A stretch of 64,000 bases of DNA, taken from contig CM057065.1 in assembly GCA_029945375.1 (NCBI GenBank), positions 1,364,001 to 1,428,000 on the forward strand, written 5' to 3'. The translations under genes and the position numbers were made by a program. Of the stretch, positions 929 through 47,390 are shown one piece after another; position 1 is the first letter of the stretch, and every line of letters starts with the position of its first letter. The notes under the pieces were generated by a model. That model saw only the letters and a list, made by a program, of their open reading frames with translations, did no database searches and had not been told where the DNA came from. This stretch comes from Agaricus subrufescens (lineage: Eukaryota > Basidiomycota > Agaricomycetes > Agaricales > Agaricaceae).

Positions 929-1759
929 CTCCCGGATGTGGAGAAACACTATTCTTGAATGTTTACACTGCAGTTACGAGAAGTCCATCGCCCAGATAGC
1001 AAAATGACCCTGGGGCAAAAGAATCTCTGCCATACACTTTGTTCGCTATTGAAGAGAGGACGGGTTCTTCAACAGTGTGAGGTTAGTGACACAACCTCGA
1101 GGCTTCTTGACCAGAGTTTGTAGAGATTCAACCGAAGCAACGAGAGCAAGAAGAAAGGATAGAGACCGGCAAAATGGAGGAGCAGGGGTTTGAGACAAGA
1201 GGATGGAAGATCGAGACGACAGTTAGAAGACTGAGACGACTGGGTTTTCGGACGACGACTGAACAGCAGCGAGCAAGCAGGAGTGAATATTTGCCTATCC
1301 TACTACAGGTGTGTCCTTGAAATGCGAAGAATTTTAGTGTAGAGAGTCGAATGGTGAAAACCATCGACGACGGGAAAAAGGAACTGAAAATCCGTACCCA
1401 TATGTCCGATTGAATAGAGTTTAAAAATTTCCCTGTCCTCCTCCTTAAAGAAGAGAGGACTATCCCCCCCTCCATTCCCCAGCTACCAAAGTGCACGGCC
1501 GATGCAGTTGTCATGCATCGGAGAGACAAGTGCAAAGACGAGCAATCGCCGTTTTCCACTCAATTCTTGAAAAGGGCTGTGCTTGCAATGACTCGTCACT
1601 CGTAGATTAATTTTACCTTCAATTTTTGCGAGCTGTCGTGAGTGCAGGCCGCTCTGCGATAGTGTCAGTTGAGAGGGGGTGAGTGCGGGTGTTTGAGACA
1701 ATGGTGGTTGGGGTGATTGGCTGATCTTTACGCGTTTAGGAAGTAGTGAGCGTGCTGCA

Positions 1760-2127
1760 TCAGTGGACCAGGTCAGAGGTAATCCTCAGAAACCCAGGGG
1801 TAATCCCTCCAGTCTGGGCCATGAAAGATCTCGAGACCTTGAGAGGTGGAACATCAGAAAAGACAGAAGGTGTCTTAGGACAACTATCCCACCAGTAAAG
1901 TGATAGTGAGCGCCATGCTCGCCAAGGGGAACGAGGTGCCCGCAATGACAAACACAAACATCAAGGCACATTTCTGCTCATAGCAGGACTGGAATGCTTG
2001 TGCGTTCGATCGGATTACTGTTTCAACTAGATATCCAGGCGTGACTATGATAACCGGGGTCACATATACTTGTGCGATGTGCTCTTGTCTCGCACTTCCT
2101 TGACCCTTGGAGGCCAACAGAATCCAT
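1760..2127 (-). pseudogene. Relic of multi-pass membrane protein gene (copy 1)
   Basis: The minus-strand reading (SKGQGSARQEHIAQVY, then hydrophobic VIIVTPGYLVETVI) aligns with residues about 40-130 of the intact membrane protein encoded at 57939-56847. The N-terminal helix is missing. One extra base after the ATG at about 2127 disturbs the frame relative to the intact gene. The intron after 'TITLL' is preserved (GTGGGA..CAAG), but the second exon diverges after about ten codons and ends at a stop at 1760, so the remaining helices are gone. This is a truncated duplicate and not a functional gene. The same truncation is present at 48706-49073, so it predates the block duplication. Confidence 0.7.
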
Positions 2128-2434
2128 CAGTATTTTTTCTGCTACTAGCCGTGTCCTATATATGTTTTCGGTTCCTCCGCTAGTCCGAGGTGCTGCAGTG
2201 AGACAGCGTTATAGCCATCGCTCGCGGTTATAATTAGCACAAGCACAGCGATTGAGCGTGAGATGCCTCGTGCCCATTGCAGCTGCTCCTCTTTGCCACT
2301 CAACCTCGTTCGCACAAATCCCCGCACGAAATTCCAACTCAAAGAGGTCTGGCCCAAACGTTACACCTTCGCAATTGTCGCAGCTGTCCTCTTGACACAA
2401 CTTTTGTCCTCTGATTGTAACGCCCTCACTGGTC

Positions 2435-5400
2435 ATGAAGTGCACAATCACAATCCCCAAGTGGTGGAAACGAAAGCGTAGTGGCAACACGGTTGATCAG
2501 TCTGGGTCTGGGAGTTTCTCTACATCTTTACCGGAAATCTCAGGTATGCTTGTTGATATTCTTGCTTGGGAACACACTCGAAGCTCTTGGTCACCTCAGT
2601 TACTCCCCCACCCACCCAGCCTGCGCCCACCGCCATCATGCGCAATCAATCCATCTCCGAGGGTCACTTTTCATCTTTACAAAATGCGTGGGGTACGTTT
2701 CTGTGTATACTCGCATAAGAACACAGTCAGAGTTCATGACCGCCTCAGACCCTGTCACACCCGCCGAACCGACACCTATCGTACCCCACGAGTCCAGTGC
2801 CGAAAGTCATGTTTCGTCTTCACAGGATGTCCGAGGTGCGTTTTTGTGTGTATTTGTATGAGGATAGAGTCAGGATTCATGATCGCTCCAGGCCTTCTCT
2901 CACCCGCCCTGCCGACGTCTATCACCCGCGTGATCCATGAACCCAGTGCTGAAAATCGTGGTTCGTCTTCACGGGATACTCGAGGTGTGTCTTTGTATGT
3001 ATTTAAATGATGACAAGCGGGGCTCATGATCGTCGCAGCCCCGTCTAGTTCAAGCAACTTCTTCAATGCAGCTCATGGCTTTCAAGTCTACGGTGGCAAC
3101 TTCTATGGTGGTCCTGTCACGCAAATCCACGGAGAGGATAAAATACGCCGTAGTAAGAAACATCCTATCATTTCCTTAAGAAGCCAACTCATTCGCCTTA
3201 TCCTCAGTGATGGAGTTACTTTTAACACGTGTCATGGACGGTGCCGCATCAAACGATGCCTCCCGCAAGTATCGTCCCAATTGTCATCCCGGTACACGTG
3301 AAGCGATCCTCGGATGGCTCCTGGCTTGGTTCAAAGACCCCTCCCGCGCCGAATCCGTTTTTCTTCTTACTGGCCCAGCAGGCGTTGGTAAATCAGCCAT
3401 CATGCAGACCTACACGGAAACCGCGGGTCATCGCGTCATTTCTGTGTTTATTTCGCGACCAAATAAATGTAACGACCCGGACCGTGTCTTCACTACTATC
3501 GGATACCGACTTGCTGATGAAATCGAGGCATACCGCAACTATATCGTTGACCGTATTGCTACTAGCCCCGACATTCTCAACAAAGACATGCAGACTCAAT
3601 TCCAAGTCTTCATCGTCGAGCCATTTGTAGTCAGGAAAGTCGGAGCTGATGGGCCGCCCTCGGCTATATTGCTGGATGGGCTTGATGAGGTCGAGGGTAT
3701 AGACGCACAACGACAGATTATCCGACTCATTGGCACGTTTATCCACGAGCATCCGGATGCACCCCTTGCCTGGATCATTGCGAGTCGTCCAGAGTTCCAG
3801 ATAACCAACACGTTCAAGCAACCGCCAATGCAAGGGCGGTTCAAGTCATACACCATCTCCATCGACGACCCGGATTCTCTCCAAGATGTTGCACGCTTCT
3901 TGTATGCTGGCTTCAACGAAATACGACAGGAGTTCGACGGCCTCATCTCCCCGAAATGGCCTGAGGAAGCAAAGCTAGCGAAGCTTGTGACTGCTTCGTC
4001 TGGCCTCTTCATTTTTGCTCAAACTGCGCTTCGGTTCATCCGGGATCCTGAAAATCCTAACCCCGCTTCACGCCTCGATCTTGTCTTATCCGTCATTGAT
4101 CGTTCGAAGGATGTTCGTCGCGAGGAGCAGCCCTTCAAGAATCTCGACAACTTGTACACCGAGATTCTCTCAAGAATCCCAGAGGGAGTGCTACCCACAA
4201 CGAAACGCTTGCTGAGACTGGCGTTGGCATTCCGCAGTGACGGTTTTCTTGGACTCGATACTTGGTCGAAATCTCGTACACTGCGAGGCATGGCTCTGAT
4301 GCTCCAGGTCGATCCGGATGACGTCCATCCCGCTCTCATCAACTGTATTTCAACGCTGAAGATACCGGGTCGAGAGGAAGCACATAAGACGCCGTTGACA
4401 TTCCTACATGCTTCGTTTGCCGACTACTTAGTGGACGCGGAAAGATCGGGGAAGTTTTATATTGATGTTGATCGCATTGAGAGCGACGTGTTGCTGGGCT
4501 ATGTGAAGTTGTGGGATAGATATTCTGGCGGGGAATCAAGTACGTTTGAGTGTATGATCATCGTGTTTGAGGAATGCTTATACCGGCTTTCAGCCGGTGG
4601 TGCCAAATTTATCAGTGACGGAATGGCAGAACTCCCAGACAATGAAATTGAAGTGTTTACCACAGGTATTCTTCAGGAGATGGGCGAAACTTTACTAACC
4701 GGGATAGTGGAAAGGCATGAGCCTCAGCAAGTGCTTTCTTCACAATTGCATGAAAAGGACTTTGAGTGTTTCGATGCACTCCTAAATATCAACATGATCA
4801 GGCTTTGCGAACTCAGTGATGGCATGTGGACTGCCAACAATGGTGCTGGCATTGTATATAAATTTGTTAGGAGGGCATTCAAGAATTGGAAGGTAGTGTC
4901 TGAGTCAATATTAAACATAGGAATGTCTGACTATTGTTACAGGAATTTCCACATGAACTTGATAAAAGGGGGATGTTTCGAGAGGTCTACTATGAAGATA
5001 TGAATATTGACTTGAACAATAATGGAATTTATATGGTTAGATTAGTAAGTATATCAGTTGGTGATGTCTGGTCTGTCATTGACTATTTCTTTTCCACAAA
5101 TCTCATGGATCAGGGAGTAAGTACATGAGTTGGTGAAGTCTGGTCTGTCATTGACTATTTCTCTTCCACAAATCTCATGGATCAGCATGTAAGTACATGA
5201 GTTGGTGAAGTCTGGTCTGTCATTGACCATTTCTCTCCCACAAATCTTATGGATCAGCTTGTAAGTACATCAGATGGTGAAGTCTGGCCTGTCATTAACT
5301 ATTTCTCTTCCACAAATCTCATGGATCAGAAAGTAAGTACATGTACATCAGTTTGTGAAATCTGGTCTGTCATTGACTATTTCTCTTCCACAATTCTCAT

Positions 5401-6767
5401 GGATTAGTATGTAAGTACATGAGTTGGTGAAGTCTGGTCTGTCATTGACTATTTCCCTTCCACAAATCTCATGGATCAGCGAGTAAGTACATGAGTTGGT
5501 GAAGTCTGGTCTGTCATTGACTATTTCTCTTCCACAATTCTCATGGATCAGCATGTAAGTACATGAGTTGGTGAAGTCTGGTCTGTCATTGACTATTTCT
5601 CTTCCACAATCTCATGGATCAGCTTGTAAGTACATGAGTTGGTGAAGTCTGGTCTGTCATTGACTATTTCTCTTCCACAAATCTCATGTATCAGGGAGTA
5701 AGTACATCAGTTGGTGAAGTCTAGCCTGTCATTGACTACTTCTCTTCCACAAATCTCCTGGATCAGTTTGTAAGTACATGAGTTGGTGAAGTCTGGTCTG
5801 TCATTGACTACTTCTCTTCCACAAATCTCATGGATCAGGAAGTGAGTACATCAGTTGGTGAGGTCTGGTCTGTCATTGACTATTTCTCTTCCACAAATTT
5901 CATGGATCAGCGAGTAAGTACATCAGTTGGTGACATTTGGTCTGTCATTGACTATTTGCCTTCCACAAATCTCATGGATCAGGGAGTAAGTACATGAGTT
6001 GGCAAAGTCTGGCCTGGCATTGACTATTTGTCTTCCACAAATCTCATGGATCAGGGAGTAAGTACATAAGTTGGTGAAGTCTGGTCTGTCATTGACTATT
6101 TTTCTTCTGCAAATCTCATGGATCAGCGAGTAAGTACATTAGTTGGTGACATTTGGTTTGTCATTGACCATTTCTCTTCCACAAATCTCCTGGATCAGTT
6201 TGTAAGTACATCAGTTGGTGAAGTCTGGTCTGTCATTGACTATTTGTCTTCCACAAATCTCATGGATCAGCGAGTAAGTACATCAGTTGGTGAAGTCTGG
6301 TCTGTCATTGACTATTTCTCTTCCACAAATCTCATGGATCAGGTTGTAAGTACACCAGTTAATGAAGTCTGGTCTGTCATTGACTATTTCTCTTCCACAA
6401 ATCAGACACATCAACCTGTAAGTACATAAGTTGGTGAAATCTGGTCTGTCATTGAATATTTCTCTTCCACAAATTTGATGGATCAGCCTGTAAGTACATC
6501 AGTTCCTGATCTGTGGCCTGTACTTACTGTTTATCTTTCAAATAATCAGGAAGTAAGTAAATCAGTTCATGAAATGTCATTTGTTATTCATCATCATCTT
6601 CACTTCAGAAGGTTATTGATTATGCAACCAAAAACTTTCTACAAAGATCACCCAATCTACCAGTCCTCATATGTGGAACAGCTCCTGGTGGCCAAGTTGC
6701 TATGATTCCTGGAGATGCTGAGGGGGAAACATACTGTATTGTTCCTTACCAACAAAGAAGTACGTGA
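2435..6767 (+). CDS. NACHT-domain NLR-like protein with intron-like repeat array (copy 1)
   Basis: Predicted STAND NTPase of the fungal NLR class, a family linked to non-self recognition and programmed cell death; that role is inferred from the family. Proposed exons: 2435-2543, 2600-2692, 2749-2835, 2892-2984, 3039-3152, 3208-4892, 4943-5044, then a 72-bp repeat array, and the last exon 6609-6767 ending in TGA. All introns have GT..AG ends; the first four are phase 1. The start is chosen because the N-terminus (IPKW.KRKRS.NTVDQSG) is conserved in the second copy. Exon 5 carries the NFFNAAHGFQVYGGNFYGG block typical of agaric NLRs. Exon 6 has CHPGTR, Walker A (GPAGVGKS, about residue 220), Walker B (ILLDGLDE, about 318) and ASRPE. 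No WD40, TPR or ankyrin repeats follow; the array takes their place. The terminal exon encodes about 52 residues (VLICG.APGGQVAMIPGD). The ATPase part looks intact; whether the array is spliced is unknown. Confidence 0.75.
5045..6608 (+). repeat. Tandem array of about 22 intron-like 72-bp units inside NLR copy 1
   Basis: Each unit starts with GTAAGTA (one unit has GTGAGTA), contains a candidate branch site (CATTGACTA) followed by a pyrimidine-rich stretch, and ends with ATCAG, then three bases before the next GTAAGTA. I count 22 donors between 5045 and 6543. The final unit ends at the acceptor CTTCAG (6608) of the last coding exon. One junction is damaged (CATCAACCT at about 6413). Triplets between units include gga, cat, ctt, aaa, tat, cga, ttt, gaa, gtt and cct, all sense codons. 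Units here are more diverged than in the second copy. About half carry TCA and half TGA in the plus-strand frame at the same codon. Confidence 0.9.
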
Positions 6768-7407
6768 GGTAGAGGAAGTAAGTGCAGAGTCTTTTCCCTT
6801 TTCGCCCACTGATGAACACAAATTCTGTGTAGTCTGATACTGTCATATGCTACTCTTTCTTTGTTCTGTCTTTGTCTGATAAATGTACAACATATATTCA
6901 TGGTGCTTTTTGAGAGTCTCGTCATCCTTACCTATTATCAGGATCTAAGAGGACCACAAATTTTGGTGTCTCGCCCTCCCAACTCTCACATCAACAATGG
7001 TATATCCCCCCATATTATATTCTCATCCACTACGCTCGTTTCAATCGCCATACACCTCCGATAACACTTATCACCAAACTTCAGTATTCCCCGGATTAAT
7101 ATGTATTACTTCTACTTAACAATATACTAAACGAATGCGAATGCCAAAACAAGAAACACGCAAGCCCAAGTAACGAACATTAAGAAAAGCGAACCAAACG
7201 GATAAACGCATGTGTAGACAGCATCACCAAAACCTTGTACGCCTAAGTTCGACACCCGCAACAAACCTCCTCAACACAACGTTAACCGTCAGACTTGAAA
7301 AGCCACTACCAACGAACAACTCTACCCGCTGTGCAACATACATATCCGTAGCCTGCGCAGTGTACCTGGTCTCCCATCCCAAATCTAGATCTCGACTGGT
7401 CGAAAAT
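6768..7407. other. Intergenic, convergent NLR / O-FucT-like
   Basis: This is the 3' flank of the NLR gene, conserved in copy 2 (53601-54248). It holds only short frames without domain content. It probably contains the 3' ends of two converging transcripts; no clear processing signal was identified. Confidence 0.4.
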
Positions 7408-9031
7408 TCATCCCGGTCCTACACAAAGTACGTAGTCGAAATCTGTAAGTAAGCCGGAGTCGTTGTCGTTGTCGACGGCGGCGGCAGCGGGGGAGGATGC
7501 AGCAGTGGATAACGATTGGGGGGTGTCGAAGTGCAGGCCCTCTTTAAGTTCTTGCAGGGATTCGGTGTCGCCATTGGTCATGACGTAGATTTTCTTCAGC
7601 ATCTTTTTGATTTTTGATTTTGTTATTGATGACGTTTTTGTTTCTTCGAGTTTTAGCCTTTCGGAGTGCCACTCTCGCACCACCTTCACCATCTCTTTCT
7701 TACCATATCAATATCGATGAGACAGTTCTCTGTGTATCGCTTCTGAGCTCGTCCTTGGGTAAGACGTCTAAGAGGGTACTGTTCTCGGCGAAGAAACGGT
7801 CGGGGAGGGATGGGAGAGTGTTGTAGCCATGGTACGTCAAGTTCCATGACACAAGGTTGTCACAGTGTTAGATGAAATTGCCCCGGCGGAGGTGAATAGC
7901 AAGGAGCGGAAGGGGATCAGCTTTTGTGACCGACGGCGTGAGTGACAGGGTAAGTCCGCGCCCAGTCCAGCGTTGTAGTGCGAGGGAGAGTTGCGGTTTC
8001 GAGAAGTATATGACAATAGGGGTTGATTTTTCGTCTCTGAGGTGGAGGCAGTGAAGTGATACATGGTTTGCTGGAAGGCGTAATAGATCGGAGGCGACCA
8101 GGAAAAGTCCTTCAGGGAGGAGGTCTTCACTCTCGTCGGCATGATATCGTGCAACTGTGGAGTACCAAACAGCCTACGACAGAATTTAGGCGATATGCAA
8201 ATAGAGTCGACTAAGTAAGCAATAATTACCGGATGTCGAAGAACTGAGGCGTGTCTTTGTTGATTTCGACAGAACGATTGGGAATGCTGCGTAGTTTGTC
8301 GATGGTCATGGTCTGCAGTGCGCTAATCTTCAAGGGTGTTGTGCCTATGATGGCGGATGAATGAGAGATGTAAGGGCCTGGGCATATGTGTTAGTAATGG
8401 TACCGGGAGACAGCTCGAGGGTGGGTACGTACCATTGATGAGTTGGTGTACAGATGCTGAATGAGAGGGTCGGCGAGGCAGAGAGAGGAGTCCGGGAGGG
8501 AACATGTTTGCCGTTGAAGTCTGCATATTCTGCATCAAGCTTCCAGATGTAGTTGCCTGACCGGTGGCATTCAGCTGTTTGACTCGAGTTGTGGGCGGGG
8601 CGCGAAGAAACATGGACACTCACGTTCAATATGAGCCATAGGCAAGCGGGTCTTCCATGACACGGCATTTCCCCATACGGCACCGCATACTTGATCGGCG
8701 AAATATGCACACCCGGTACTCGAGCCTTCAGGGGAGTGTAGCGTTTCATTGTGCTGAGCAAAGGAGTTCTGGTAGGTGTTTTGGTTGTACAGCGACGGTA
8801 GGGAGAGCCCAAGATCGTAAGGCGACAGCGGAGGGGTTGCGCAAGGAATAGGGCGAGACGGACAGCCCGGGAGCAGGGCGGCCCGCACAGTGTGAGGAAC
8901 AGCGCAAATCTTCGGGGAAACGCGAGTGACGCGTTCCTGGGAAAATGCCAGGAGCCCCGCTTCTTCCCCCCACCACCGCCTCTGTCTATACATCCAATGG
9001 ACAGCAGTAAGTATCGAGGACAATGATGCAT
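7408..9031 (-). pseudogene. Decayed GDP-fucose protein O-fucosyltransferase-like gene (copy 1)
   Basis: Read on the minus strand, scattered frames match the agaric O-fucosyltransferase-like (CigA-type) family in order. The pieces are QHNETLHSPEG near 8745 followed by a GCAYFADQVCGAVWGNAVSW block; NRSVEINKDTPQFFDIRLFG near 8250; LAIHLRRGNF near 7890; YHGYNTLPSLPDRF near 7830; and IYVMTNGDTESLQELK near 7580. Members of this family act on glycan or protein acceptors in the secretory pathway. Here the copy is broken: the HLRRGD motif reads HLRRGN and is followed two codons later by TAA, and one A is missing after GACGAGCTCA near 7748, shifting the frame. Some introns (GTACGTAC..CCCAG, GTAATTATT..GTAG) can still be seen. 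The family call rests on motif recall and was not searched. Confidence 0.6.
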
Positions 9032-9470
9032 GAATCATGCCTGATCCCTCCTCGTGCTGCATAGTGTCGGAGGCATCTCCACCACACAAGTTCCCATGTC
9101 GCATCGACCATAGCACATACAGGTCAATCCCACCACAGTAACGCAAGGTAAGAAACCTTTTATTCCCATTTCCACGCCAGCCAGATGTCAACTGAATCCA
9201 CATGTCCCCAGTGTTGCTCTGGCCGGGTCAGAGAGAGCCCTCCTTCGATGGAACGTCGTCGCGTTGCCTTCTTCATTCTTCAGTACACGTACCACACTCA
9301 GCAAGCGAATTCTCGTGTATGCGCAGCTACCAGTCGTCAACATCGCCTATTCTGTTATCCGGCCTGGAACAATTGGCCGACTTTCTGTCATCTATGGTAA
9401 ACGACTGCCATATTCTCAGTCTCGATCTCAGTGCTTACTCTTTTATAGCAACTTCCATTGGCGTCTGGGG

Positions 9471-11836: not shown

Positions 11837-14800
11837 ATGTCAAGGTACAACCTACGCAGTCATACGAACAAGAACCCCAAGTCAGGGGATACAAAACGTG
11901 AGTCGCTCTCACAAAATACTGTTGACGAAAATTCTCCTTTACAGCCTCCGGGACTCCCCATCCCTAGTCACCTCGTACCTTTGTTGGTCGAGGAACCAGT
12001 ATTAAGACCCCCCGTATTAAGAGAGGACTCCATGCCTCACTTGGGAGATGAGATCGTGGAACCAGTCACTGTTCCGATCCCTCCCCAGGACGTGGAAGAG
12101 ATAGTCTCTCCATTGATGAAAAGACCTGAAATGGAAGGTGATGGCTCGGACGCGAGCATCGAAAATGAGGATCCTTCGAGTACTAGTCTACTGTCCGAGG
12201 AATACACTAACGTAATAAACTCGATGAGTACATTGTCTCTGAGTAATGAAGGGAATACAAAATCAGGCAGAAGCGAAAATTACTTCACAGCATTATATTC
12301 TATTAATCCCATAGAAGAAGAGAACTTGTCACAATGTAGCGACGACCACTGGAAAGAGAACAGCTCTACCATTGACAATGTCACAAATGAAAACTGGCAT
12401 ACTACAGAAAATAGGGAGAACAATGGTGATATGAACGATCTGGAAGCCAGTACTTCAAAGGACAAAGGAAAAAACGTAGATCCTATGAATTGGGGTAACG
12501 CAGACATTCCAGAAAATGAACTGGACATTAGAACTCAAGAACGAATACTCGAGGAAGCCAGGCGTATAATGATGTCAAGAAAAACAGCAAGGCCGAGGAT
12601 GACCTCCACCCCCAGGAACAACTATCCAATTCCAAAGAGAAACACCAGAATGGTAAGGGAACCAGTGAACTTAAATGTTCCCTCGCAGATGACAGCTGGC
12701 CAAAGTGCTGGGATAAGAAATTTTATTCGGAATAACTATGAGATGAATCGGGAAGGATCTCGGTCCGGAAATGTAACTGATAGTCACATTGGCAATGGAA
12801 TTTCAAGACCGATAGACCTGATCAACCCGAAAAGCTATCTTGGTGTAGCATTTGACGAACTCCGCCAACGATCTATTGGACCTGACAAAAGAAAACAATC
12901 GACTCATAAGTCCAAAAAGGCCAAGAAGAAAGGCAAACGTGATAAACGACACAAGTCAAAAAGCAAACAATCTCGAAAGAAATCGAGACATAGGAGTCAA
13001 GCTACCCTGATCTCGATTCCCTCTTCGGAGGTTCCCATAACCATGAACGCTCCTAGCGAACCCGATCACTCCCCGAGTTCATCCAGTAGTGAATCTAGTA
13101 GCAACACTGAGGACTCCTCCTCAACTTATAGTACCAGTGACAATAACTCTTCAGAAACTGAGTCTAGTAACTCTGACGACTCAGAATCCGATGCCCCTCA
13201 AAGAAGATCTCACACAACGAACTCCAGGTCCCTATTCAAACCTATTCCACCCGAAAAATATGATGGGTCTCCATCTACCCAAAAAATTTTCCAATTCATT
13301 AAGCAGACGGATGAATATCTCACAGATGGACATGCTCCACCAACTAGAGAAGTATCAATAGCTTCTAAATTCCTAACTGATAAAGCATACGACTTCTATC
13401 TCCTTAACGCCTCTCTTCAGCCCCAGCGATGGATGTGGCACCAATTTGCGGAAGCTCTCTTTAACCACTGTTTCCCTGCGGACTTCCACACCCGACAACA
13501 ATCGAAGCTGAACAATTTTAAGCAACATGACCATGCGGTCAAAGAATACACTAGCCACCTATACGAACTATTCATTGTCGTTGGGTTAGATGCGGAAAAT
13601 CCAAGTGACGAACGCATAATGGCCGATAAGTTCTGGCAGGGGCTCAGACCTGAAATTCAAGAACAATTGTGGTTGTCCAATCTAAACCCTGATGCAAGTT
13701 CATTAGATGACATTCGAATGACTGCAGAAAGAATCGAAATGGCTCAGTCGGTTGTCGCAACAAAATACTCAGGACGAGCTGGGTCCAGCAAATCTTCAGA
13801 TGCTTCTTGAGGCAAGCGACATAAACAGAAGAATTATGGGCATAACGAAGAGCTTCACTCAAATAAGTCCAACAACAATACCAACTTCAGGGAACATAAC
13901 AATGGTCACCACAAAGGCAGGTTCAAGAAACGAACAAACCAAACACCCCACATGAATAACGGATACAAGAAAAGGACTCACCGAAGCAAGTCCCCCACCT
14001 TCCGACGCAAGGATAATCACCACCGAAACAATAATAAAAAAGCGAATTGGATTCCACAAGAGGAATGGGATCGACGACGCCAAGAGGGCAAATGTTCTCG
14101 ATGTGGCAGCGGAGACCACATGACAAGACAATGCCCCGACGCGCAAACAGTCTCATCCTCGAGTAGAAATCCCCCTGGAATACAAGCTAACAACATTGAA
14201 GTATCAAGTGTTGATAAAGCAGAACAGCTACAGGCCTTAGCTGATACTACGGAATGTGCCAATGAAATTGAACTAGGTGCTTTGAGACTCGGCTCATTAA
14301 TTGAGGAAACCGAGGCAATAACTTCAATCTATGGCACATGTCTTGAAATAACAGATCGTGAACTGGAAAGCACACATAGTTCAGAAATAGAACAAGAATA
14401 TGATAGCATTCCTGACCTTCTGAGTATCTCCAACTCTAGTCTGGAAGACACCTCAATTGTAGATAATCTGAAAGCACCAGCAAAAATTCTAGACAAATGG
14501 GGGTGAGAAGTCGTAAGTAACAGAAACAGCAAAGCTCCTGTATCCTACAACAACAGAGGACTTCCCTGTCCAGTTTATTCGATCATGGATGACAACCTTG
14601 TTGCCCTACCACCTGATTCACTGGTGTTTGACATATTGCGTAACAGCTCAGAACCTATAGATTCCTGGGAACGAGTGAATGACTGGCTTCGGGATCAATT
14701 TCATAATGACGAACCCAAAGAAGACACAGACAACAACTTGAAACAGAAAATCTTCCGATTCATGGATGATGGGAAGGTCTACAATGGCAAATACCATATG

Positions 14801-17800
14801 AGTGCGCGGATACCTGAATTCATAGACTTTGAAAATGGGAAAATCGGACATGTAGCAAGAACCAAACTTGAACGAGTAGTCGTTGATTTTTTCCCTAGGA
14901 AATGGCATACGATATGGACAAGGGTCTTTGGGAGAAAACACCTACTACTGATAACTAGCCTGATTTGGGACTATACGTTGACAATTAAGATAGAACACGC
15001 GTTGAACTGGAAACCTTCTATAATCGCTCGATACCTCTGGCGTAAATTATGTCAAGCCGCACATGAAAGCAAAGTCCCAGACAGTATCCTGCAAATGATT
15101 GATGAACTATCACTGAAGCATGACTATGAGGATAACTACCTCACAAATGGTGAATTCATACTCAACTCAAAACGGGCTCTAGTGTGGGGAGGTTTTACGG
15201 ACCCCAGAGGAGAAGAATTTGAGGGATGCTATGAAGAGCGATTCAAATTAACACGTCACGGCAAATTGGTAGAAATTCTGGACTTACTGGATAACATTCA
15301 CGGCGCATTACCATACGAGTGGTTGCAACACCCACAATTCAACATAGTACAATGGTGGGTGAAGAACCTGTCACGAAAAAAGTCGAACAGCGCCAATAAG
15401 ATTCCTGAATTGGACTTATCTGACTGTTGGGACAACCTGGTGAATAGGTTCTCTGCGGACAGGGAAGATGATGATTATGACTTTGAATATAACGATTACA
15501 ATTACAACTCACCTGACTCTGAACATCACTCTGTGACAATTGAAGCGTTCGGGCAACAAGTGAAGGCCGGAACCTACTCAGCCCTACAAAGGAACTCTTC
15601 CAAGGTCAGGGACATGAGTCGACCAGTACCCAAACCACTGGTGATAGTAGTGAATCTGAACGGTCATCCCGCATGAGCTCTAGTTGACTCCGGATCCTTG
15701 AGTGACTTTGTGTCAGGAGCCCTGGTACAACAGCTCAACTTACTGAAAACGGAACTCGCCAAACCCCTTCAAGTCCAAATGGCAGCTCAGGGATCTAGGA
15801 CAAAGGTCAACTATGGAACGACTGTCCAGATGAGCTATCAAGGAATAAAAGAAGAACGGTACTTTGATGTAATGAACCTCCCAAACTATGACCTGATACT
15901 GGGAACGCCTTTCCTATATCAACATCGGGTAAGCTTAAGCCTTGAACCTCCAGCCATAGTGATTGGGAGTAAGGACTCCCAACCACTGAAAGGTCCTCGC
16001 ATTAGAATCCTAGAATCACGGGCAACCGATCTGTATGAAGAAAGCATACAGAAAGTGCGAAATGAATTAATTGAGTATGCAAAGCCACTATGCATAGACG
16101 CTATGGACACACCCCTACCACCCCTGCAGGAAATAAACCACGAAATACCACTCATCAATCCTTTGAAACGATACAGCTGGCGTCCTTCACGTTGTCCAGA
16201 TGCCCTATTGGGGCAGTGGCTGGACAAGAAGCAAAGGTATATTAAAAGTGGCAGGTGGCGACCTATGCTGGCCTCAAGTGCGGTACCTATGCTCCTGCTA
16301 CCAAAACCAAGGAAAGCCAGGGAGCCCCTGAAATTGAGAACAGTAGTTGACCTCAGAGAGAGAAACGCCAACACTAAGAAACTTTCCTCACCTTTGCCCG
16401 AAATCGACTCCATCTTGAGGAAAGTGGCTTTGGCAAAGTACCGAAGTTCGATTGACTTAACTGATGCATATGAACAAATACGCGTTCGTCCAGATCACGT
16501 CCCGCATACGGCAATGTCCACCCCTAATGGTACTATGGTCAGTGAAGTGATGCAGCAAGGAGACTGCAATGCTTCGGCAACTTTTCAAATGATCATGACA
16601 TACATATTTGCCCCCTATATTGGCGTGTTCCTGGAAGTCTACCTAGATGACATATTCATCTTTTCAGAGACACTTGTCCATCATGTCAAACATGTGAAAC
16701 TGGTGGTTGACCTGTTGAGCAAACACAAATTCTTTGTCAGTGAGAGAAAATTACATTTCTTGCAGAAAGAGATGCACATACTTGGTCGACTGTTGGTCAA
16801 TGATGGCATTCACATGGACCCGGACAAGGTGGATGCTCTCAGCCAATGGAAAACACCGACCAACAGGGACCTCTTATGAGGCTTTCTCGGTTCGGCTGGA
16901 TACTTGGCAGATGATATCGATCGAGTGCGGATCCCTATGGGCATCTTAAGCGAATTGACTGGGGACACAGTGCCCTTCCGCTGGGAATACACGCACCAAC
17001 GAGCCTTCGAAGACATAAAGGACAAGGCAATGTCCTGCAAAGATCATCATCGTCGCCCTCTTCAATATGGTCCTGATGTCCCTCCCATCTACGTGGTGAC
17101 TGATGGATGCGTAACTGGCATAGCTGGAGTTGTGAGCCAGGGGACGGACTGGAAGACGGCCGAAGTTGCTGCCTTCTATTATGCAAAATTAAATGCAGCG
17201 CAACAGAACTACCCAGTACATGAAATTGAAATGCTTGCAGGATTGGAAACCATGTTGCGGCATCGGGATATCTTACAGGGAGTTCACTTCCAGTGGCTGA
17301 CAGACCACAAGGGCCTCATCAACATATTCAAGCAGCGCGACCTGTCCCCGAGACAAGCAAGATGGTTAGAAAAGTTGTCGCAGTTTGATTTCAGAGTTGA
17401 ATACATACCTGGGACAGACAACATCCTGTCTGATGCACTATCTCGTATCTACTCCAATGAGAAAGCTGGCGCTGTGCGATCGCGCAGTGAGTACACTTAT
17501 CACGACATGATGGATGAGGACGGCCACGTACCTATAGAAATAACTCGACCAGTTCTAGTATCCACAGAAGCAAAAGCCTCACTCCTATCTTCTGGCAACG
17601 GTTCCATCTGAAGAATGACAGGTCCACGTCTGGAGGGTGGGAACTCGGGTGGCGCACGAGGTGATGCGCTGATGTTATCTACACTCAAAGTACGACGATC
17701 CAGTCGTCTGAATGGTTGGAAGGGATATTGTCATTTCCTTCTGCCAGAAGGAAAGGAGGGCGTGAGCAGAGAGAAAATAATGAAGCCACAAACGCATACA

Positions 17801-20506
17801 AAAGAGAGCTCACCATGGATACAGAAGTCTAATGATGAAACCAGGCTAACAATCAGAATACCAGCAAGAACAGTAGCAGGAACAATGAAAACTAATAGAC
17901 CAACCGCAGCAAATCCTATGCCCCCAAACGACAGTTCCCAGGAAGAACCCCCATGCGTAAATAGCCACACGCCCCTAAATACACCGACTATTAACTTAGT
18001 CAACATAAAAGGGATCGACGTCCAGAACACAGTCAAGGGAAACTACTCACTAGATGATGTTTTCAAAGTGGTAATCGAAAGACCGAAAGAACATAAGAAC
18101 TTCAAATTGAAGGAAGACCTACTATACATCAAACTAGAAAATGCAGAGCCCCTATGCATACTGGATATAACAATAGGATCCAGAAAATTACGAGAACTCC
18201 TAATATCAGAAGCTCATACATTGTTGGCTCATTTGGGACCCAGAAAGACTCTCATGTATCTGCGAGACCATGTATGGTGGAAAAACATTGCTAAAGACAC
18301 CACAGCATTCTGTGAAACTTGTGTCACTTGTAAGCGAAGCAAACCATCGAATCACAAACCCTATGGTCTATTGAATCCATTGAGGACACCTAGCCGACCT
18401 TGGGAAAGTATAGGAATTGATTTCGTTGGGCCACTACCTGAATCTCGAAATAGAAATGGTACCTTTGACACAATAACCACTGTAATAGATCGACTAACTG
18501 GAATGGTACATTTAATACCCAGCAAACAAACATTCCAGGCCCGAGATATCGCAGAACTACTATTCAGCGAAGTCTATCGACTCCACGGATTGCCCAAATC
18601 TATTATCAGCGACAGAGACTCTCTCTTCACAAGCACCTTCTGGAAACACTTTCACAAGTTAATTGGCACAAAATTAAGCATGTCAAGTGCCTATCATCCA
18701 GAATCTGATGGAGCAACTGAATGAGCCAACTGAACTATCAATCAAATGCTTAGACAATGTGTATCTAATGACCAAAAGGACTGGGTATCGAGATTACCAG
18801 CGGTTGAATTTGCCATTATTTCCTCGAGGTCAGAAGTCACTGGATTCGCTCCCTTTTTCTTAAACTACGGACACATGCCTTGTACATTCCTCTGTAACTC
18901 CGGCAGTAAGGACGAATATCCGGGTGTTTTGAAATTTGCCCAGAATTTGAAAATTGCTATAATGTCTGCACATGACAGCATAATCACTCATCGGGTCAAA
19001 CAAATTAGAACAGCCAATAGGAAGTGGTTACCTTCCCCCTTTGAGATAGGAGATCTAGTCTATGTATCTAGCAAGAATTTATCCATACCCAAAGGATTAG
19101 CCCAGAAATTCTTCCCGAAATTTGTAGGACCTTATCCAATCATCCAAAGTTTCAACAATGACTCTTTCTGTCTCGGCCTCTTGAGGAATCTAAAACAAAG
19201 AGGAATTCATGACATGTTTTATTCCTCCCTCTTACGAGTACACACTCCCAACAATGACAGACTCTTCCCTAATTGCTCTGACTCGGTATTATGGGAAACT
19301 GAAGACGCTGGCCAAGAATGGTCAGTCTCGCGTATCAAATCACATTCGGGTAAAGGAAAAAATGCTCTGTTTGAAGTGGAATGGAAATCTGGTGATGTCA
19401 CATGGTTGCCATACTACAAAGTGGATCATCTAACGACTTTGAAACAATATTTCGAAGCATGTGGTATTGAGGATATAGGCGAACTCAAGAACAGCACATC
19501 GGACCTTGTGCCTTCCGACAAACAAGTTACCCTCAGCTCGATTGAACTAGAAGAATTGCTTATAGAAGAAAACATTGACCATACCCCCTCCATCTTCTTT
19601 ACCGATCCTTTCGCTCTTTATTTTTCCTCAGCCACTCCTTTTCTTTCTACCTACCTTTTCATAATGCCCAAGGTTGACTGGCATCCCTCTCGCAGCCTTT
19701 TCAACACTCTCAAAACTCACTTCCCTTTCATCTACACCAACGAGCCCGCTCTGTGGACTATTTGGGACACTACCGATCCTGACTATGCAACCAAACCCCG
19801 GATCTACTGACACTTCTCTCCTGCACTCATGCGCTCCTACAACCAATTCGACTTCCACCTACATAGCAACAATCTTGACGGCATCAATGAACCCGTCAGT
19901 TATTCTTTGTTCACTCACATCTTCAACAACCACCAAAATACTCCCTTTGGCTACACCTACTGGGACCCCATATCTGCACAATGGGTCGTCCCTCCCAACT
20001 GTCGTAACATCTCCTATACAGATCTCGACCTCCTGGAATTCGCTCTTGCTGTCCCTCCTTTGAAAAACAACACTTTAATGGATATTGGCATCACTGATGG
20101 CAATGGGCACATGAAGGACGACATGGTTGTTAATCTGACTAGGGCAATCGTTAAGAATGCTCTACGCACCAACAACGACTCCCCGCCTCAACCAGGATAT
20201 GGGCCATCCAAACGAAGCTCCTTCCGTAGATCTAAGTTCGCTCCCTATGAGAAGAAACCTCATCGCTACTTTGGAGTCGAGGACTCCCTCTCCGAAGGAT
20301 TTGTTTCCACACCCAATTCACCTTCCCTTCATCCTCAGTCGAACATCTCTGCTGCAAATCCTACGAACTCTCCCATCAATAACAATGCTTCCAATCCTAT
20401 AATTCCACCCACGGATTCTGTCGTTGCCATTAATCCTACCAGATTAGCCCTCAACGGTACCGAAGTTGGTTCTACTCCCATGGAGGAAGAGTATATCGCG
20501 GTTTAA
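11837..20506 (+). pseudogene. Gypsy gag-pol polyprotein, one frame broken by eight TGA codons
   Basis: From ATG at 11837 to TAA at 20504-20506 one frame (2890 codons) runs without any frameshift. It is interrupted only by TGA at 13808, 14504, 15674, 16877, 17609, 18722, 18731 and 19808. Domains in order: a long acidic/Ser-rich N-terminus; retrotransposon Gag core (about 465-640); CX2CX4HX4C knuckle CSRCGSGDHMTRQC (about 752); protease ALVDSGSLSDF (about 1282), reached straight after the third TGA; RT with VYLDDIFIF (about 1602); RNase H with TDG and TDHKGL (about 1750-1870); integrase HHCC zinc finger and D,D,E core ending HPESDG (about 2125-2295); chromodomain-like segment (about 2490-2545); then an unassigned C-terminal extension of about 340 residues. 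Several TGAs sit where relatives have Arg (for example GATE-stop-AN-stop-TIN), so they are probably mutated CGA codons. Confidence 0.85.
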
Positions 20507-21654: not shown

Positions 21655-24600
21655 TATTCGTCCTGTGTACCCAAGATGCTGGATCTATCTATAATGCTCC
21701 ATCGATCTCTGTCCCTTATTTGTCCGACGGCGCATTGGACTGTACTGAGGTTGACCAGTTGGATAGTGCCAGTATCTTGGTAAGTGTACATATTGTTCTT
21801 TGCGGTGATCTTGACGGTTTCAACAACAGCATATATGACCATTGATGACAAATTGAGGCCTAGTGCGGGTATATTCGGTAGGTTGATAACAAGGACTCGC
21901 TTCAGCTGCCCAAAATATGACCGCTTCACAAAAAGTGACGGGCGGTTTGGATAACGCTCATACTTGTCAACCATTTGAATATACTATTCGGTTGGTTTAA
22001 TTTAGATCTCACAAAATAAGAGCACTTACTTTGATGAAGGAGGCATCGTGTGAGTCCTCACTTTGCCGAATCAAATCATGACCCGTCATTAACTCGTTCC
22101 CAGGCAGATGAGCTACCCTGCTGTAGTGAAGGACAGGTTTGTCAAGGCTAATGAGTGTTTTGACGGTAGATTTTGGCTTCTTGAATTGTGTCGCTAAAGC
22201 TGAAAAAAGTTTGTCACGGAGGTACATAGGTATCGGCTCATGTCGTCGTGGCAGAGAGAGCTTGTAAGATGGATCTAGAATGATGGGGTTCAGGATCTGT
22301 GTCTTGAGGATTATGATAATGTACATGAACTTGGTATTAGCTCTTTTATTGACAGCATCCCTTTCGCACCACACAGGCTCAGTTCTGAATAAAGGTTGTA
22401 CTTAAGTCGCACTTGATCAAGCTGGGCCATTGCAGTGACAAATGAGGCAATAGCTGCGTAAGGGTGTCAGCGACTCCGGATGGAGGGTAAGAGGGTATTA
22501 CAATGTCATTCCATCAGGAAAGCCCAATAAGTCCAAACAGGGCCTGCCACCCAAATACCCCAAGCAATATGGAGGAGAGCATGTATCGTTAGTGGACATG
22601 CAGAGAGACGGCGGGTGTTATGATTATGAACAATGTTTTCTTTTACGGAAATGATTACTTATGTAATCGTTTCAATTATGCCTTTCTATTCCTGTACTTA
22701 TATTTCGCTTCTTTGATTTTGATATTTCTGTACTGTCTTCTGTGCCTTGATTATGAATGAACTCTATATAAATAGTTAAGAAGTCTCATATATAGATAGA
22801 AGAACTTCTATCTAGATATCTTTAGTTTCATTTAAGCTTCTATCTCGGTCCCGAGCCATGCTTCCTGCCCTGAGGATCATTATTAGGGATAGAGCTTCTT
22901 AGGATCAAAGTTATTAATAGATAGAGTCATGTAGTATATAAGACGTCGACTTGGCCATGTAGAAACTCCCCAACGTTTCTACTTGGTTAGGTGGAGACTC
23001 GAATATAGAGCCTTTTCTCTAACTAAAGCCTAGAAGTGAATTAAGCCTTAATTGCTTTAATATCTTTGATATCGCTCTCTAGCTCTAGTTGCTTTGCGTA
23101 TTCGGGTTACTTTGAGATATTGATCATCGAAGAGGATCCTTTGTTACGCTTAGGTAATCTGAGCATTTCCTACGACGTAACGCCCTAGCTTAGGACTGGG
23201 CCGGGGTCACTATAACAGCGGGGATCCTGCAAATAATAGAATCTATAGCAGGGTGAGGAGATGCGAGAGATTGATATGTCTATCAAACTCACTTCTCATA
23301 GTCCTCAACCCAGGTCTGGAAGCCCATATCGATCACGTCCAGCATCTCTTCAGTAATCTCACACTCCATACACATTTTGAGTAGCTCGACGAGCTTCATG
23401 AAATGCTGATAGTATTTTCTTTGCTTGAACCTGTCCAACAGTAACGTTGGCGCAGTGAAAAGGGTCCAATTTGAATACATCTCCACTGTCATTTGGGATT
23501 GTTGCAGGGCTATGTTTGGCAGGGGCGCTCCAAACGACGATGGTATGTGTGGTTTACAAGCAGCCATATTAGATCCAATTTGTCTCCAAGCCTCTGGTGA
23601 GATGACGTAGCCTTGATCTCTGTGGTCAAGGTCTTTGAAGGAGCTGGTCCAGAATAAGATAAGATTGGGAATGAGATTTTCCCAGATAAGATGCATAAAG
23701 TCGAATGGAAATGATTCGGGGAATGATATCGAAGACAACAAGCTAAGGATTGGTATGCCTTTGATGCCGTATTGTTTGGCAAGCCGGTTAGACATGGCTT
23801 GAGTTGCAGCATCTTGTACCTCCTTTGCTTGAGCCATTAATTCATCATGCAATCGGAGAGGAAGTTGCGACGCGTTGAAGGATGAGGGATCAGAACCTGG
23901 AACTCGATCTTGTCGTAAAGGGACATAATAAGTATTAGAGGCGCTGCTGCAAACACCCGTTATTTTACATACCCGACATGGGCTGAGTCCATTAGCTCCC
24001 TTCATACACATGAGAAGTGCCATGGCAGGAATATCACCAAAGACCAAGATGAGGTAAGCATGGAGTAAGAAAAGGCTTTGGCTGACAGTGTTGTAAGATT
24101 TAACTCCAACCTCAAGTTGGATGAGTTCTTGAATGAGCGGCCAGAGAAAAGAGTCCATATCCCAGGGCTTTTTGGGGCCCGGGACGGTTCCAATGTTGAT
24201 ACAGTATTTTTTTTGAAAATGGATGGTGGGTGGGAGGTTATAATTGAAAAGGACTATAGGCCAACACATCTTATCTTGTCGTTTGAATGGCGCAAAGCCA
24301 TCGGTGGAAAGGCTGAGTGCAACATCATGGGGATCCGAGAAATAGAAAAAGGGCTGGTCATCGCAGCTGGTCAGGACAACCTTAGTCAGCAACAATCAGT
24401 AGTGAGACCTGTCGAAAACATCCATCGTCACTCCATCCTCATGTTCAAAGTAAGCCTGGTAACACATTTTGTTGGCAAATTCACGATTGGCGGACATCGC
24501 TCATAAGCAGTGAATCAGGGGAAGGTATTCAAAGACTTTATGCAGTTTATTTCGACCGTTGAACCATGTCTCCTTGCAATCAGGGCATTCTGTGAGGTCT

Positions 24601-34125: not shown

Positions 34126-36592
34126 GGTTATGGGCCCCGCAATCGCTCTCGCCTTTCCGGCTTGAGATACGATCTGTGGATCTATTTTAGATCTCGCTTC
34201 TCTGAAGCTTGAGTTCTATATTTATCCCAATCGCTCGCTGTTGAAACGAGTTGATAGCCTTTGTTGGATTCTATATATAACCTTAGATAGAGTTTGTCGT
34301 ACCCTAGATTACATTTACTGACTGCCGGGTTGCAGGGCCGCAAACGGAATCTCCATCAACGCTCTCCCCAAACTCACTGGTGTCGACAACTGGGACAGTT
34401 GGTCACGCCGTGTTAGGAACGTCCTCATCTTGATGAGGCACTCCGATACCACCCTTTCTGCGTGGGAAGTCTCCGGGTCAGACAAGGCCTTACCCAAGGT
34501 CCCTGAACCCAAGAGCGACAACGATGTTGACGGCCTTGATGCTCTTTTGAAAGAGACCAATGCCAGAGACGCTCTCTCCTTGCAGGCAACTGCAGTGATT
34601 GAGAGTGCTCTTCCCGATCATATGATCAGGGAAAGCTTCGCTGATGCTAAGGCCCTTTGGACCAAACTCAAAGAGACTTACGGGGTTCGTGGACCTTCCT
34701 TCGTTTATTCTAAACTGATGGAAGCCATGACATTCAAAGTTCCTGATATAGCCGATCCATCTGGATCCATCGCACATCTTCACGCAATCTTCTCTCAAAT
34801 CTCCGATGCGGGGGCTCCTATTCATGAGTCCCTTCAAGTGATGATGCTACTTAACGCATTGCCACCATGCCTTGAAGGCGTGACTTCAGTCATGCTGGCC
34901 TCTTCTAAGAAGGTCACTGATATGGAGTTTGATGCCGCACGAGATGCGATTATGGGTGCCTGGCGCAACCCTCATTCTACTGCTAATGCGGCCAAGTTTA
35001 GACAACAAGGCCAGCAGAAACCACAGTGGAACCGTAACAATGGTCAACCACAAGCTTCTGGGTCGAAGCCTCTGGCTCCCCAACAACAGAAGCAGCAGCA
35101 GCAGCAGAAGCCGGCCCAGCAGGGTCCTTCTGGCCAGAACAATGGCAATGAGAAGAAGCGCAAGCGCACACGAGGCCGAGGCAAAGGCAAGGGCAAGAAC
35201 CAAGGTGGTGTCGCCCAAATCAAGGAAGTGCCTGCAGATTACAATGCGGCATCCGCAATTGCCTTCCCCATGGTAGCCGAAGTACCGGCTCCTTCCACAC
35301 GCTCCCTGGTGGAGCGCATACGTCAAGGAAAGGTCAAGAACATGACGATGGGATCTACTCCTATCTCCGCTCCTTCCGGTGCGTTTTCTCCCGTTCTTAC
35401 CCCAGAGGAATATCAAACTGACGAAATCGTTTATCCTATCTTTTCACCTTCGGATTGCAATCATCATTTCAATTGTGGTCATCTCGCACACCCTTACTGC
35501 GATGGCCATAATTGTAATCATCTGAATCATTCCGATGACGATGAACTTTCCGACCACTCAACCGCATCTGACCAATTCTATAATTGGATTTGCGAATGGC
35601 GGAATGATATTCCACAATATTCGTCACCTACTCTGACCCCTGGAACTTCTGTCTCCGATCCCACAGATGACGGAACATGGCTACCTGGTACGGATGGATA
35701 TCCTGCCTGGACGATCCATGATCATTCCATACAGGAATCAGAATATGCCCATAATCAACGGGATCCCTCGGAACCCGTGGATTACGAAATGACTCCGGAA
35801 CTCCCTTCCGATGTCTATCGTGGCTGGGCATTTGATGAAACGCCACATGGCTGGTCACTGACTTCTGCAGATGTTGCACCTCCTGCCGTCCCGCACTGGT
35901 CTGTGACTACTTCGGAAATCTATCGGGCATATGAATCTGATGATGATGATAACCGCACAATCACATCTTCGGAAATTTGCAATGAACTCTATGGGGCTTG
36001 TGCGGATGACTTCATCCCTTATGATCAACGATCATTCGATTCCCGACGTGGCTATTTCCGGCGCCTGCATATCCCTTGCGCACCGGAATCATCATATGAT
36101 GGCGATGTTGATCTGGACCGGTATCGTCGAACCAATCGCTGGGTTCACGAATACCGGAAATATTCCTTGATGCATGAATGGGTTCATGTCTACCCCATGA
36201 AATGCGAACATCTGGTTACGCTTCGGTCCAACCCGGCACCGGATGTCTGGTCTATTGGAAAATACACCAATGGCCACGTCTTTTCATGGAACCCAAATGG
36301 TAAATACGTGGACATCACGAAAACCCTATTGGCCATGACAGTTGCTAGGATAACTGATCCTCGTCTTTGGACTGGCAGGGTCACGCCCTACCAAGAAGCC
36401 AAGCTGAAAGCCCTGCTTGCATGGGACAAACACTTGGGGGACGTAGTTCTCAACCTCCCGGAAAGCGTCAACATCATCGAAGAAGCATTCCCGGTGGAGG
36501 AAGAAACGGAATCCCCGATCGATCACACGATCAATGGCTTCGGGTCAATGGAAGTTGTGGAGCAAGGGCCTTCCCTTATCGATGAGAAGTAA
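34073..36592 (+). pseudogene. Outer Copia gag region, start codon apparently formed by splicing
   Basis: The gag frame is open from about 34337 (AANGISINALPKLTG.DNWDSW) but has no ATG in a suitable place until 34430, inside the conserved gag block. A GT..AG intron 34075-34335 (GTGAGTCTAT..GGTTGCAG) would join AT (34073-34074) to GGCCGCA and create ATG-GCC in frame. Residues about 1-200 resemble the Copia Gag (UBN2/DUF4219-like) domain; a basic Gln/Lys stretch (KKRKRTRGRGKGKGK) and a His/Cys-rich patch follow. The frame ends with TAA at 36590, while protease and the rest are in another frame, so at least one frameshift separates them. Confidence 0.65.
34126..34146 (+). promoter_or_regulatory. 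Primer binding site of outer Copia
   Basis: GGTTATGGGCCC immediately follows the LTR. This matches the site known from Copia elements that prime with an internal half of initiator tRNA-Met. The same 12 bases follow the LTR of the nested Copia (minus strand, about 46911-46922). Confidence 0.8.
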
Positions 36593-40940: not shown

Positions 40941-41408
40941 TATTGAAGCAGCACCGTAGTGTGCACAGCGGTTAGGACAACAGACACGAACCTGTATAGG
41001 TGTGCCTGTGGGTTCTTGAGAGAGATATCAAGAGAGGAAGAATTTAGACGAAATATGAGATGGATTTCGAGCTGAGTTACATACAAGCATAATTGTACTT
41101 TATATACATACTGCATAGTCATAATCTAGATATCATAGTTACAGGACCTGTGTAGAACGAAGTAGATGTAATAAATTAGAGTAGGGAGTATATTCTCGAG
41201 TAGATGAACTGCTCGAGAATATTAAGCTGTATATGCGAGGAGATCTTGTAAGATCTCCTCGTAGCGTTCGTCTGTACTCCCGAAACTCTGTATAGAATAA
41301 CTACTACGAGTAGGGACTCTTCTGGTACCATGGACAGGTCCAGGAGTCGATGTAAGCTGAGATGTTTGAGCGGGTGTCCATGGAGGTTGGATAGATTAAG
41401 TCTCAACA
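40941..41408 (-). repeat. 3' LTR of nested Copia
   Basis: On the minus strand it runs TGTTGAGACT..GCTTCAATA, ending in TA instead of the usual CA; the other LTR has the same end. Confidence 0.9.
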
Positions 41409-46922: not shown

Positions 46923-47390
46923 TATTGAAGCAGCACCGTAGTGTGCACAGCGGTTAGGACAACAGACACGAACCTGTATAGGTGTGCCTGTGGGTTCTTG
47001 AGAGAGATATCAAGAGAGGAAGAATTTAGACGAAATATGAGATGGATTTCGAGCTGAGTTACATACAAGCATAATTGTACTTTATATACATACTGCATAG
47101 TCATAATCTAGATATCATAGTTACAGGACCTGTGTAGAACGAAGTAGATGTAATAAATTAGAGTAGGGAGTATATTCTCGAGTAGATGAACTGCTCGAGA
47201 ATATTAAGCTGTATATGCGAGGAGATCTTGTAAGATCTCCTCGTAGCGTTCGTCTGTACTCCCGAAACTCTGTATAGAATAACTACTACGAGTAGGGACT
47301 CTTCTGGTACCATGGACAGGTCCAGGAGTCGATGTAAGCTGAGATGTTTGAGCGGGTGTCCATGGAGGTTGGATAGATTAAGTCTCAACA
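46923..47390 (-). repeat. 5' LTR of nested Copia
   Basis: Promoter-side LTR (minus strand) with TATATAAAG near 47080-47090. Identical by eye to 40941-41408. Confidence 0.9.

Follow-up and report, generated by a model that had tools for sequence, protein, structure and literature searches.

Arrays of intron-like units with putative one-codon exons in NACHT-type receptor genes of Agaricus subrufescens

The primary paper on the 3-bp microexons of truffles is said to be Iotti et al. 2012. In the passages available from three papers, codon-sized microexons of 3 bp are cited for the NACHT-ANK (nank) gene family of Tuber melanosporum, an ascomycete family of ankyrin type for which alternative splicing is reported (PMC3689799, PMC4986451, PMC10197012). 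These are the closest described counterparts to two genes found in a 64,000-nucleotide stretch of the genome of the mushroom Agaricus subrufescens (contig CM057065.1, positions 1,364,001 to 1,428,000; hereafter the window), each of which carries an array of intron-like units separated by single codons. As far as the truffle sources go, and with the mushroom side read from sequence alone, both systems have NACHT-type fungal NOD-like receptors (NLRs), strings of tens of 3-bp exons and an expanded family. The mushroom genes differ in being from a basidiomycete, in showing no ankyrin match in Pfam (gene 1) and in having hypervariable codons on near-identical introns. The initial annotation of the locus had proposed that a NACHT-type gene holds intron-like units and, between them, one-codon exons, in phase 0 on both sides, which stands; its further statement that no NLR with such an array had been described does not, since the truffle microexons were already cited. 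What is new relative to the truffle is the other phylum, the other receptor type and, possibly, the sharp division seen here between introns that are homogenised and codons that are hypervariable. The abstract of a 2024 paper on Trichoderma describes functional microexons as undescribed in filamentous fungi, and Iotti et al. is among its references. No string of codon-sized exons in a basidiomycete was found in the literature searched at the level of titles and beginnings of abstracts. Taken with the truffle case, the mushroom genes suggest that NACHT receptors with strings of codon-sized exons exist in ascomycetes and basidiomycetes alike.

Other systems resemble the arrays in part, as described in the passages at hand. 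The high internal conservation (HIC) repeats of Podospora HNWD genes (PMC12222747) likewise combine near-identical tandem repeats, few hypervariable sites and a variable repeat number in a NACHT receptor. However, the HNWD repeat is itself protein (WD40, 126 bp) and holds the hypervariable sites, whereas the mushroom repeat is a putative intron with one codon per unit; the mushroom arrays have the identical repeats with hypervariable codons of HIC receptors but no protein-coding repeat, as retained frames contain stops. Many tiny exons, mostly multiples of three in length or of one phase, are found in Schistosoma micro-exon genes (MEGs; PMC10526429) and aphid bicycle genes (PMC9168663), respectively, the latter being stated to evolve fast. 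MEG exons are longer (the majority 15 bp, range 6-81 or 3-81 bp) and their introns measure 0.1-5 kbp; tandem identical introns appear in the passages on neither system. Microexons of 1 and 3 nt are described for Ncam and Drosophila TnT (PMC8042270) and for plant APC11 and VPS55 (PMC8831610), indicating that the spliceosome can include exons of 1-3 nt, which are isolated there and in strings here. The P450 microexons of the basidiomycete Phanerochaete chrysosporium (PMC1184071) also go with small introns, but they encode 2-10 residues (shortest exon 6 bp, 2 amino acids) and are scattered, with no tandem array in those passages.

Both genes lie on the plus strand, at 2435-6767 (gene 1) and 49379-53600 (gene 2). 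The initial coordinates 4943-5044, 5045-6608 and 6609-6767 for the parts around the array of gene 1 hold on re-reading of the sequence, and a coding exon precedes and follows the array in both copies, as had been proposed, with both joined frames open and in phase 0. All array and gene readings, including the features below, rest on genomic sequence.

2435-2543, 2600-2692, 2749-2835, 2892-2984 and 3039-3152, plus strand: gene 1, five short predicted 5' exons with their introns; joined frame open, donors and acceptors picked by eye.
3208-4892, plus strand: gene 1, large exon carrying a P-loop NTPase region of NACHT/NPHP3_N type (PF24883, E 3.5e-12).
4943-5044, plus strand: gene 1, pre-array exon ending in phase 0; 20 genome matches at E <= 10.
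5045-6608, plus strand: gene 1 array of 22 putative introns; the 21 intervening 3-nt spacers would encode G H L K Y R H L G F E R G G R F R V P P E.
6406-6417, plus strand: gene 1, possible 12-nt exon (THQP) that would replace the 3-nt CCT exon, which the CAA acceptor adjoins.
6609-6767, plus strand: gene 1, terminal exon and stop; 26 genome matches at E <= 10.
49379-50094, plus strand: gene 2, five short predicted 5' exons with introns.
50150-51834, plus strand: gene 2, large NACHT-type exon (the Pfam scan covered gene 1 only).
51885-51986, plus strand: gene 2, pre-array exon, phase 0.
51987-53447, plus strand: gene 2 array, 20 putative introns and 19 spacers (R Q R Q R L F Q R Q R V G G Q R V P E); final acceptor AAG.
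53448-53600, plus strand: gene 2, terminal exon and stop.

Joined through all micro-exons, the predicted exons give stop-free proteins of 834 (gene 1) and 830 (gene 2) amino acids, with every array junction in phase 0. Tandem Repeats Finder reports a period of 72, with 20.2 copies at 5044-6504 and 18.8 copies at 51984-53331. Cutting array 1 at the donor GT[AG]AGT yields 69-nt bodies and 3-nt spacers, the exceptions among the first 21 introns measuring 75, 68 and 60 nt. Donors of the gene 1 array are GTAAGT, with one GTGAGT, and its acceptors CAG, with one TAG and one CAA; at the CAA site, use of the nearest AG would give a 12-nt exon and still keep the frame. All array acceptors of gene 2 are CAG except the AAG of the final intron. 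Lengths not divisible by three were found for 1 of the 21 introns tested in copy 1 and 3 of the 19 in copy 2. The initial expectation that phase 0 persists whether a unit is spliced or retained is correct for the 69-nt length, but retention would run into an in-frame stop in 12/21 introns of copy 1 and 19/19 of copy 2.

The tandem 72-bp intron-like units with 3-nt spacers first described at this locus are confirmed and lie far above chance. In the host genome (A. subrufescens, like the window; 44.65 Mb, 44 contigs), the pattern GTAAGT-N48-76-AG-NNN-GTAAGT has 360 matches and its reversed control 31. When the spacer was set to 4, 2 or 6 nt, matches numbered 14, 9 and 8, fewer than the respective controls gave (46, 78 and 38), and a GTATGT version matched 38 times, about half of these being one unrelated minisatellite. 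In viral contigs, one 26-base pattern had no exact match. Further, a 34-bp minisatellite, GTATGTTGTGAGCAGTAGAATTCTACTGCAGTGG, unrelated to the arrays, is present at several places on host contigs C3, C4, C8, C10 and C36 (C-numbers denote contigs and L-numbers loci of the host genome).

The repeat unit itself was matched 210 times in the host genome. Arrays were present at 22 of 27 places examined, comprising the 26 terminal-exon matches at E <= 10 and L031, an array without such a match; no array was found at the other five (L058, L063, L064, L065 and L066). The array noticed initially is real and its family larger. Two intron families could be distinguished: C6, C8 and C9 carry 72-nt units, and on C1, C4, C13 and C25 the unit measures about 71 nt, usually a 68-nt intron and a 3-nt spacer. 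The pre-array exon is open in phase 0 at 19/22 array loci; it was not recovered at L032 and L056, is visible by eye at L062 and was read directly at L033, where the first intron has a GTATGT donor and the scripted reading ran through. The terminal exon is in frame at 20/22 loci, gene 1 included, while the script found none at L031 and L055. L031 (C8:1401000-1410999) is a 13-spacer array that runs into unrelated sequence. At L055/L069 (C4:about 622000-624000), the array is regular at its start and continues as irregular repeats, owing either to decay or to an assembly error.

A junction-centred profile search, able to pick up damaged copies, was used to compare splice sites with intron bodies. 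AG and GT are both intact at 197/200 junctions of the 72-nt family and 157/162 of the ~71-nt family, near-copies being included in both sets, whereas a body dinucleotide is intact on average in 85% (maximum 98%) and 67% (maximum 91%), respectively. The contrast is therefore carried by the ~71-nt family, as the 72-nt family barely exceeds its best body dinucleotide. Among interior columns of the ~71-nt family, those of a CTNAY motif rank with the best conserved, the A at 97-98%; the sets of one of the two analyses behind this result were selected by splice sites, so that only their interior columns count. Spacers are exactly 3 nt long at 376/384 internal junctions with a recognisable donor, copies included. 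Measured from donor to donor (391 distances), intron length comes to 66-70 nt in 336 cases and lies within 54-103 nt in 370, with fused units, the terminal exon or artefacts making up the remainder.

What the initial annotation overlooked is that the spacer codons are hypervariable positions. Diversity was analysed in ten 72-nt-family arrays (155 units of exactly 72 nt; L037, L038 and L044 excluded), and codon positions 1 and 2 are in the top 3 of 72 positions for variability in 10/10 of them. Pooled diversity at the three spacer bases is 0.653, 0.749 and 0.272 against a body mean of 0.081; some body positions are polymorphic too, the highest reaching 0.579 at position 11. Summed over the ten arrays, variant cells number 80, 90 and 15 at the spacer bases compared with 5.8 per body site, meaning that, relative to a body site, variation is about 14-15-fold at the first two bases and about 2.6-fold at the third. 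Variation of the third base is limited to both window arrays, L035 and one unit of L036. Within-array unit pairs identical in the other 69 bases (n = 105) differ in the spacer in 87 cases, while the same pair test on 23 other 3-base windows gave 0-8 differing pairs out of 18-26. Among the 278 non-redundant spacers are 28 different codons, which cover all 20 amino acids and include no stop, with T as the third base in 238, A in 32, G in 7 and C in 1. Because T is so much more frequent than C, silent exchange between these two bases is infrequent in codons that often show replacement changes. These sequence patterns fit tandem copying of one intron-plus-NNT unit, after which replacement changes would have been kept by selection. 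The alternative that introns were inserted into a pre-existing exon was rejected, as an ordinary exon would hardly carry T third in 238/278 codons.

We hypothesize, with a probability of roughly 82%, that the observed array, with its conserved splice sites, hypervariable codon positions 1 and 2, open frame and paralogue family, represents working spliceosomal introns split by one-codon exons in a NACHT-type receptor gene, and that successive splicing builds a gene-specific peptide. Fungal introns of such size are probably recognised as introns. A plant study notes for microexons in general that they leave little room for the splicing machineries of the two adjacent introns together (PMC8831610), and stepwise removal is likely since a 3-nt exon can hardly accommodate both. 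In vivo, introns would be removed one after another, probably starting at the 5' end, each removal joining one codon to the upstream exon and bringing it against the next strong donor. With full inclusion, the product would be a peptide with at most 21 residues in gene 1 and 19 in gene 2, lying within the C-terminal alpha/beta domain at a segment predicted to form a beta-hairpin in an Agaricus homologue, and it may play a role in recognition. The intron would act as a conserved tandem repeat enabling unit duplication, deletion and exchange between paralogues, and the codon as the variable site.

Because omission of a codon shortens the protein by one residue and leaves the frame intact, full inclusion is possible and so are mixtures. 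Homologue linker length favours full inclusion in the window genes, while the truffle precedent would, by analogy, favour alternative inclusion. A more far-reaching version, in which stochastic inclusion of about 20 phase-neutral one-codon exons in about 20 paralogues generates a somatic repertoire of sensor peptides and germline unequal exchange of intron-codon units renews the codons, is conceivable but doubtful. If the arrays are spliced unit by unit, they would show introns serving as a recombining tandem repeat with single codons as variable sites, and a receptor could alter both residues and peptide length without protein repeats. They would also offer a natural test of spliceosome behaviour on a run of twenty 3-nt exons, and the array residues would probably escape standard annotation.

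The protein context is that of a NACHT-type receptor. The NPHP3_N match of gene 1 lies above the Pfam cut-off and supplies the STAND-class (signal transduction ATPases with numerous domains) P-loop NTPase of a fungal NLR; a NACHT match (PF05729, E 7.3e-4) falls below the cut-off. No Pfam match at E <= 1 to the superstructure-forming repeats WD40, ANK or TPR was found in gene 1. Based on the predicted model of an Agaricus homologue, the C-terminus is a short alpha/beta domain, and this domain is common to many Agaricus proteins. The array, initially thought to stand in place of C-terminal repeats, sits inside this domain, also present in Agaricus homologues, and the earlier view is thus only partly right. 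A fold search with an Agaricus homologue returned as top match 8bob_C, a structure whose title refers to negative regulation of the maltose system and which we take to be MalT. The other listed matches are mostly ORC/Cdc6 and other AAA+ proteins, with plant NRC2 at ranks 6 and 7 and CED-4 at rank 14, and the fold search alone therefore does not single out NLRs.

The whole-protein homologue search scored the 7994 candidates sharing most words, 866 of which matched at E <= 0.001; the 120 matches listed include metagenome proteins of up to 72% identity and Agaricus bisporus proteins of up to 47%. Region 640-834 alone gave 337 candidates in the protein collection, none at E <= 10. A BLASTP alignment of gene 1 with P0011 spans the array segment (E 3e-9, with the 120 listed homologues as database). 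The linker, defined as the distance from a REV-like block to an SP block, could be measured in the 17 of the 120 listed homologues that matched the pattern, all from A. bisporus; it is 42-50 residues long in 15 of them and 24 and 32 in the others. The window genes have linkers of 46 and 43 residues with the array and of 25 and 24 without. In the model of the Agaricus protein P0034 (mean predicted local distance difference test score 81.8), the array-equivalent segment lies between a strand at 613-617 and a helix at 657-673, with strands at 634-639 and 648-652; judged by position in an ungapped comparison, the gene 1 array would code for this predicted hairpin and the beginning of the helix. 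When the array was included, alignment scores rose in all four genes of a shuffle test, slightly so in L033.

Several observations weigh against arrays that build a peptide unit by unit. In the shuffle test, the array peptide was no closer to the Agaricus segment than its own shuffles, fractions of 0.41, 0.60, 0.71 and 0.10 being as good in the four genes, and for the complete L033 array inclusion scored 24.9 compared with 27.4 for skipping, with 0.94 of shuffles as good. Array size among paralogues ranges from 4 fitting codons, as in L044, to 31, so that the homologue length suits the window genes and not all others. It follows from these shuffles and sizes that length, not sequence, supports inclusion, and this in some genes only. 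Some paralogues look damaged, including L031, which lacks a terminal-exon match, and the largely degenerate L055, and 8/384 junctions misfit, some of them breaking the frame, as in L034 with 8 nt and L056 with 2 nt. The lack of stops among the 278 spacers, where a hand calculation from base counts predicts about 2, is not significant alone. Finally, units within an array are related, and binomial values for spacer variation are thus not true probabilities.

Alternatively, the array could be removed end to end, as a single long intron bounded by the first donor and the last acceptor, so that the spacers never reach the protein. Such skipping would preserve phase 0 and need no recognition of 3-nt exons, and L033 aligns better with Agaricus in this way than under full inclusion. 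However, it offers no reason for hypervariable spacers or for intact internal AG and GT in diverged arrays, and it would leave the linker of the window genes about 20 residues shorter than in 15/17 Agaricus proteins, making it an unlikely explanation. We consider it very unlikely that the array is a neutral minisatellite grown inside an intron, with splice-like motifs passively copied. Tandem growth, block duplication and homogenised bodies are evident and some arrays are damaged, which fits this view, but copying should homogenise spacers like bodies, yet per-site variant cells are 5.6 to 19.4 times commoner in spacers in 10/10 arrays. Splice sites are also kept where bodies have diverged, and L051 and L052 differ at 37/995 body bases and 0/45 spacer bases.

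A mutation process targeted at the spacers, rather than selection on the coded residue, would account for variation restricted to 3 bases in otherwise identical unit pairs. We know of no such machinery in fungi. Spacers are stable in some recent copies: besides L051/L052, a duplicated 5-unit block in L036 has body differences of 3, 4, 5, 4 and 1 (17 in total) and none in its 15 spacer bases. Other pairs are mixed, with 2/51 spacer and 15/1313 body bases differing between L038 and L039 and 7/51 and 26/1142 between L060 and L061, and targeted mutation is on balance highly improbable. Translation of the repeat as a 24-residue unit on the sense or antisense strand, suggested by the divisibility of 72 by three and by a 364-aa open reading frame on the minus strand at 52097-53191 in array 2, can be dismissed together with that frame, because retained frames contain stops, all six frames do so in 9/9 arrays tested (fewest 5 in L033, forward, and 7 in array 2, reverse) and the 71-nt units of the second family cannot hold a frame. 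The antisense frame itself gave two weak Pfam matches that look spurious.

Under the favoured reading of one-codon exons joined by splicing, the peptides seem, from these sequence comparisons, to turn over mainly by unit exchange and selected point changes and not by constant hypermutation. A run of six micro-exons is common to L061 and L062, their bodies differing at 0-3 bases except for one of unequal length. L036 and L037 show no differences in spacers or bodies. These two loci (C6:2398000 and C6:1841500) share a contig, on which about 556 kb separate them; their arrays match without difference along 1647 bases and represent either a very recent duplication or an assembly duplicate. Between genes 1 and 2, 22/54 aligned spacer bases and 77/1342 body bases differ, with units perhaps out of true register. 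Nonsynonymous (dN) and synonymous (dS) substitutions per site, estimated from few sites, are dN 0.062 and dS 0.174 in the later NACHT exon and dN 0.175 and dS 0.160 in the terminal exon. A segmental duplication, about 1400-9200 and about 48300-56000, carries both NLR genes. Identity between the duplicates varies: the NACHT exon is 99.0% identical over its first part and the terminal exon 84.6%, and this unevenness suggests local gene conversion.

The window also holds mobile elements. A Copia-type long terminal repeat retrotransposon on the minus strand (41448-46703), with one open frame of 1751 amino acids, is flanked by 300-bp direct repeats at 40941-41240 and 46923-47222; these are shown as 100% identical, and the insertion is therefore probably young. 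Further, the window contains a gag-like frame at 11837-13810 (below the Pfam cut-off), an integrase frame at 17615-18724, a tnp2 transposase on the minus strand at 23289-24395, and copia gag and reverse transcriptase pieces at 34430-36592 and 37905-39329.

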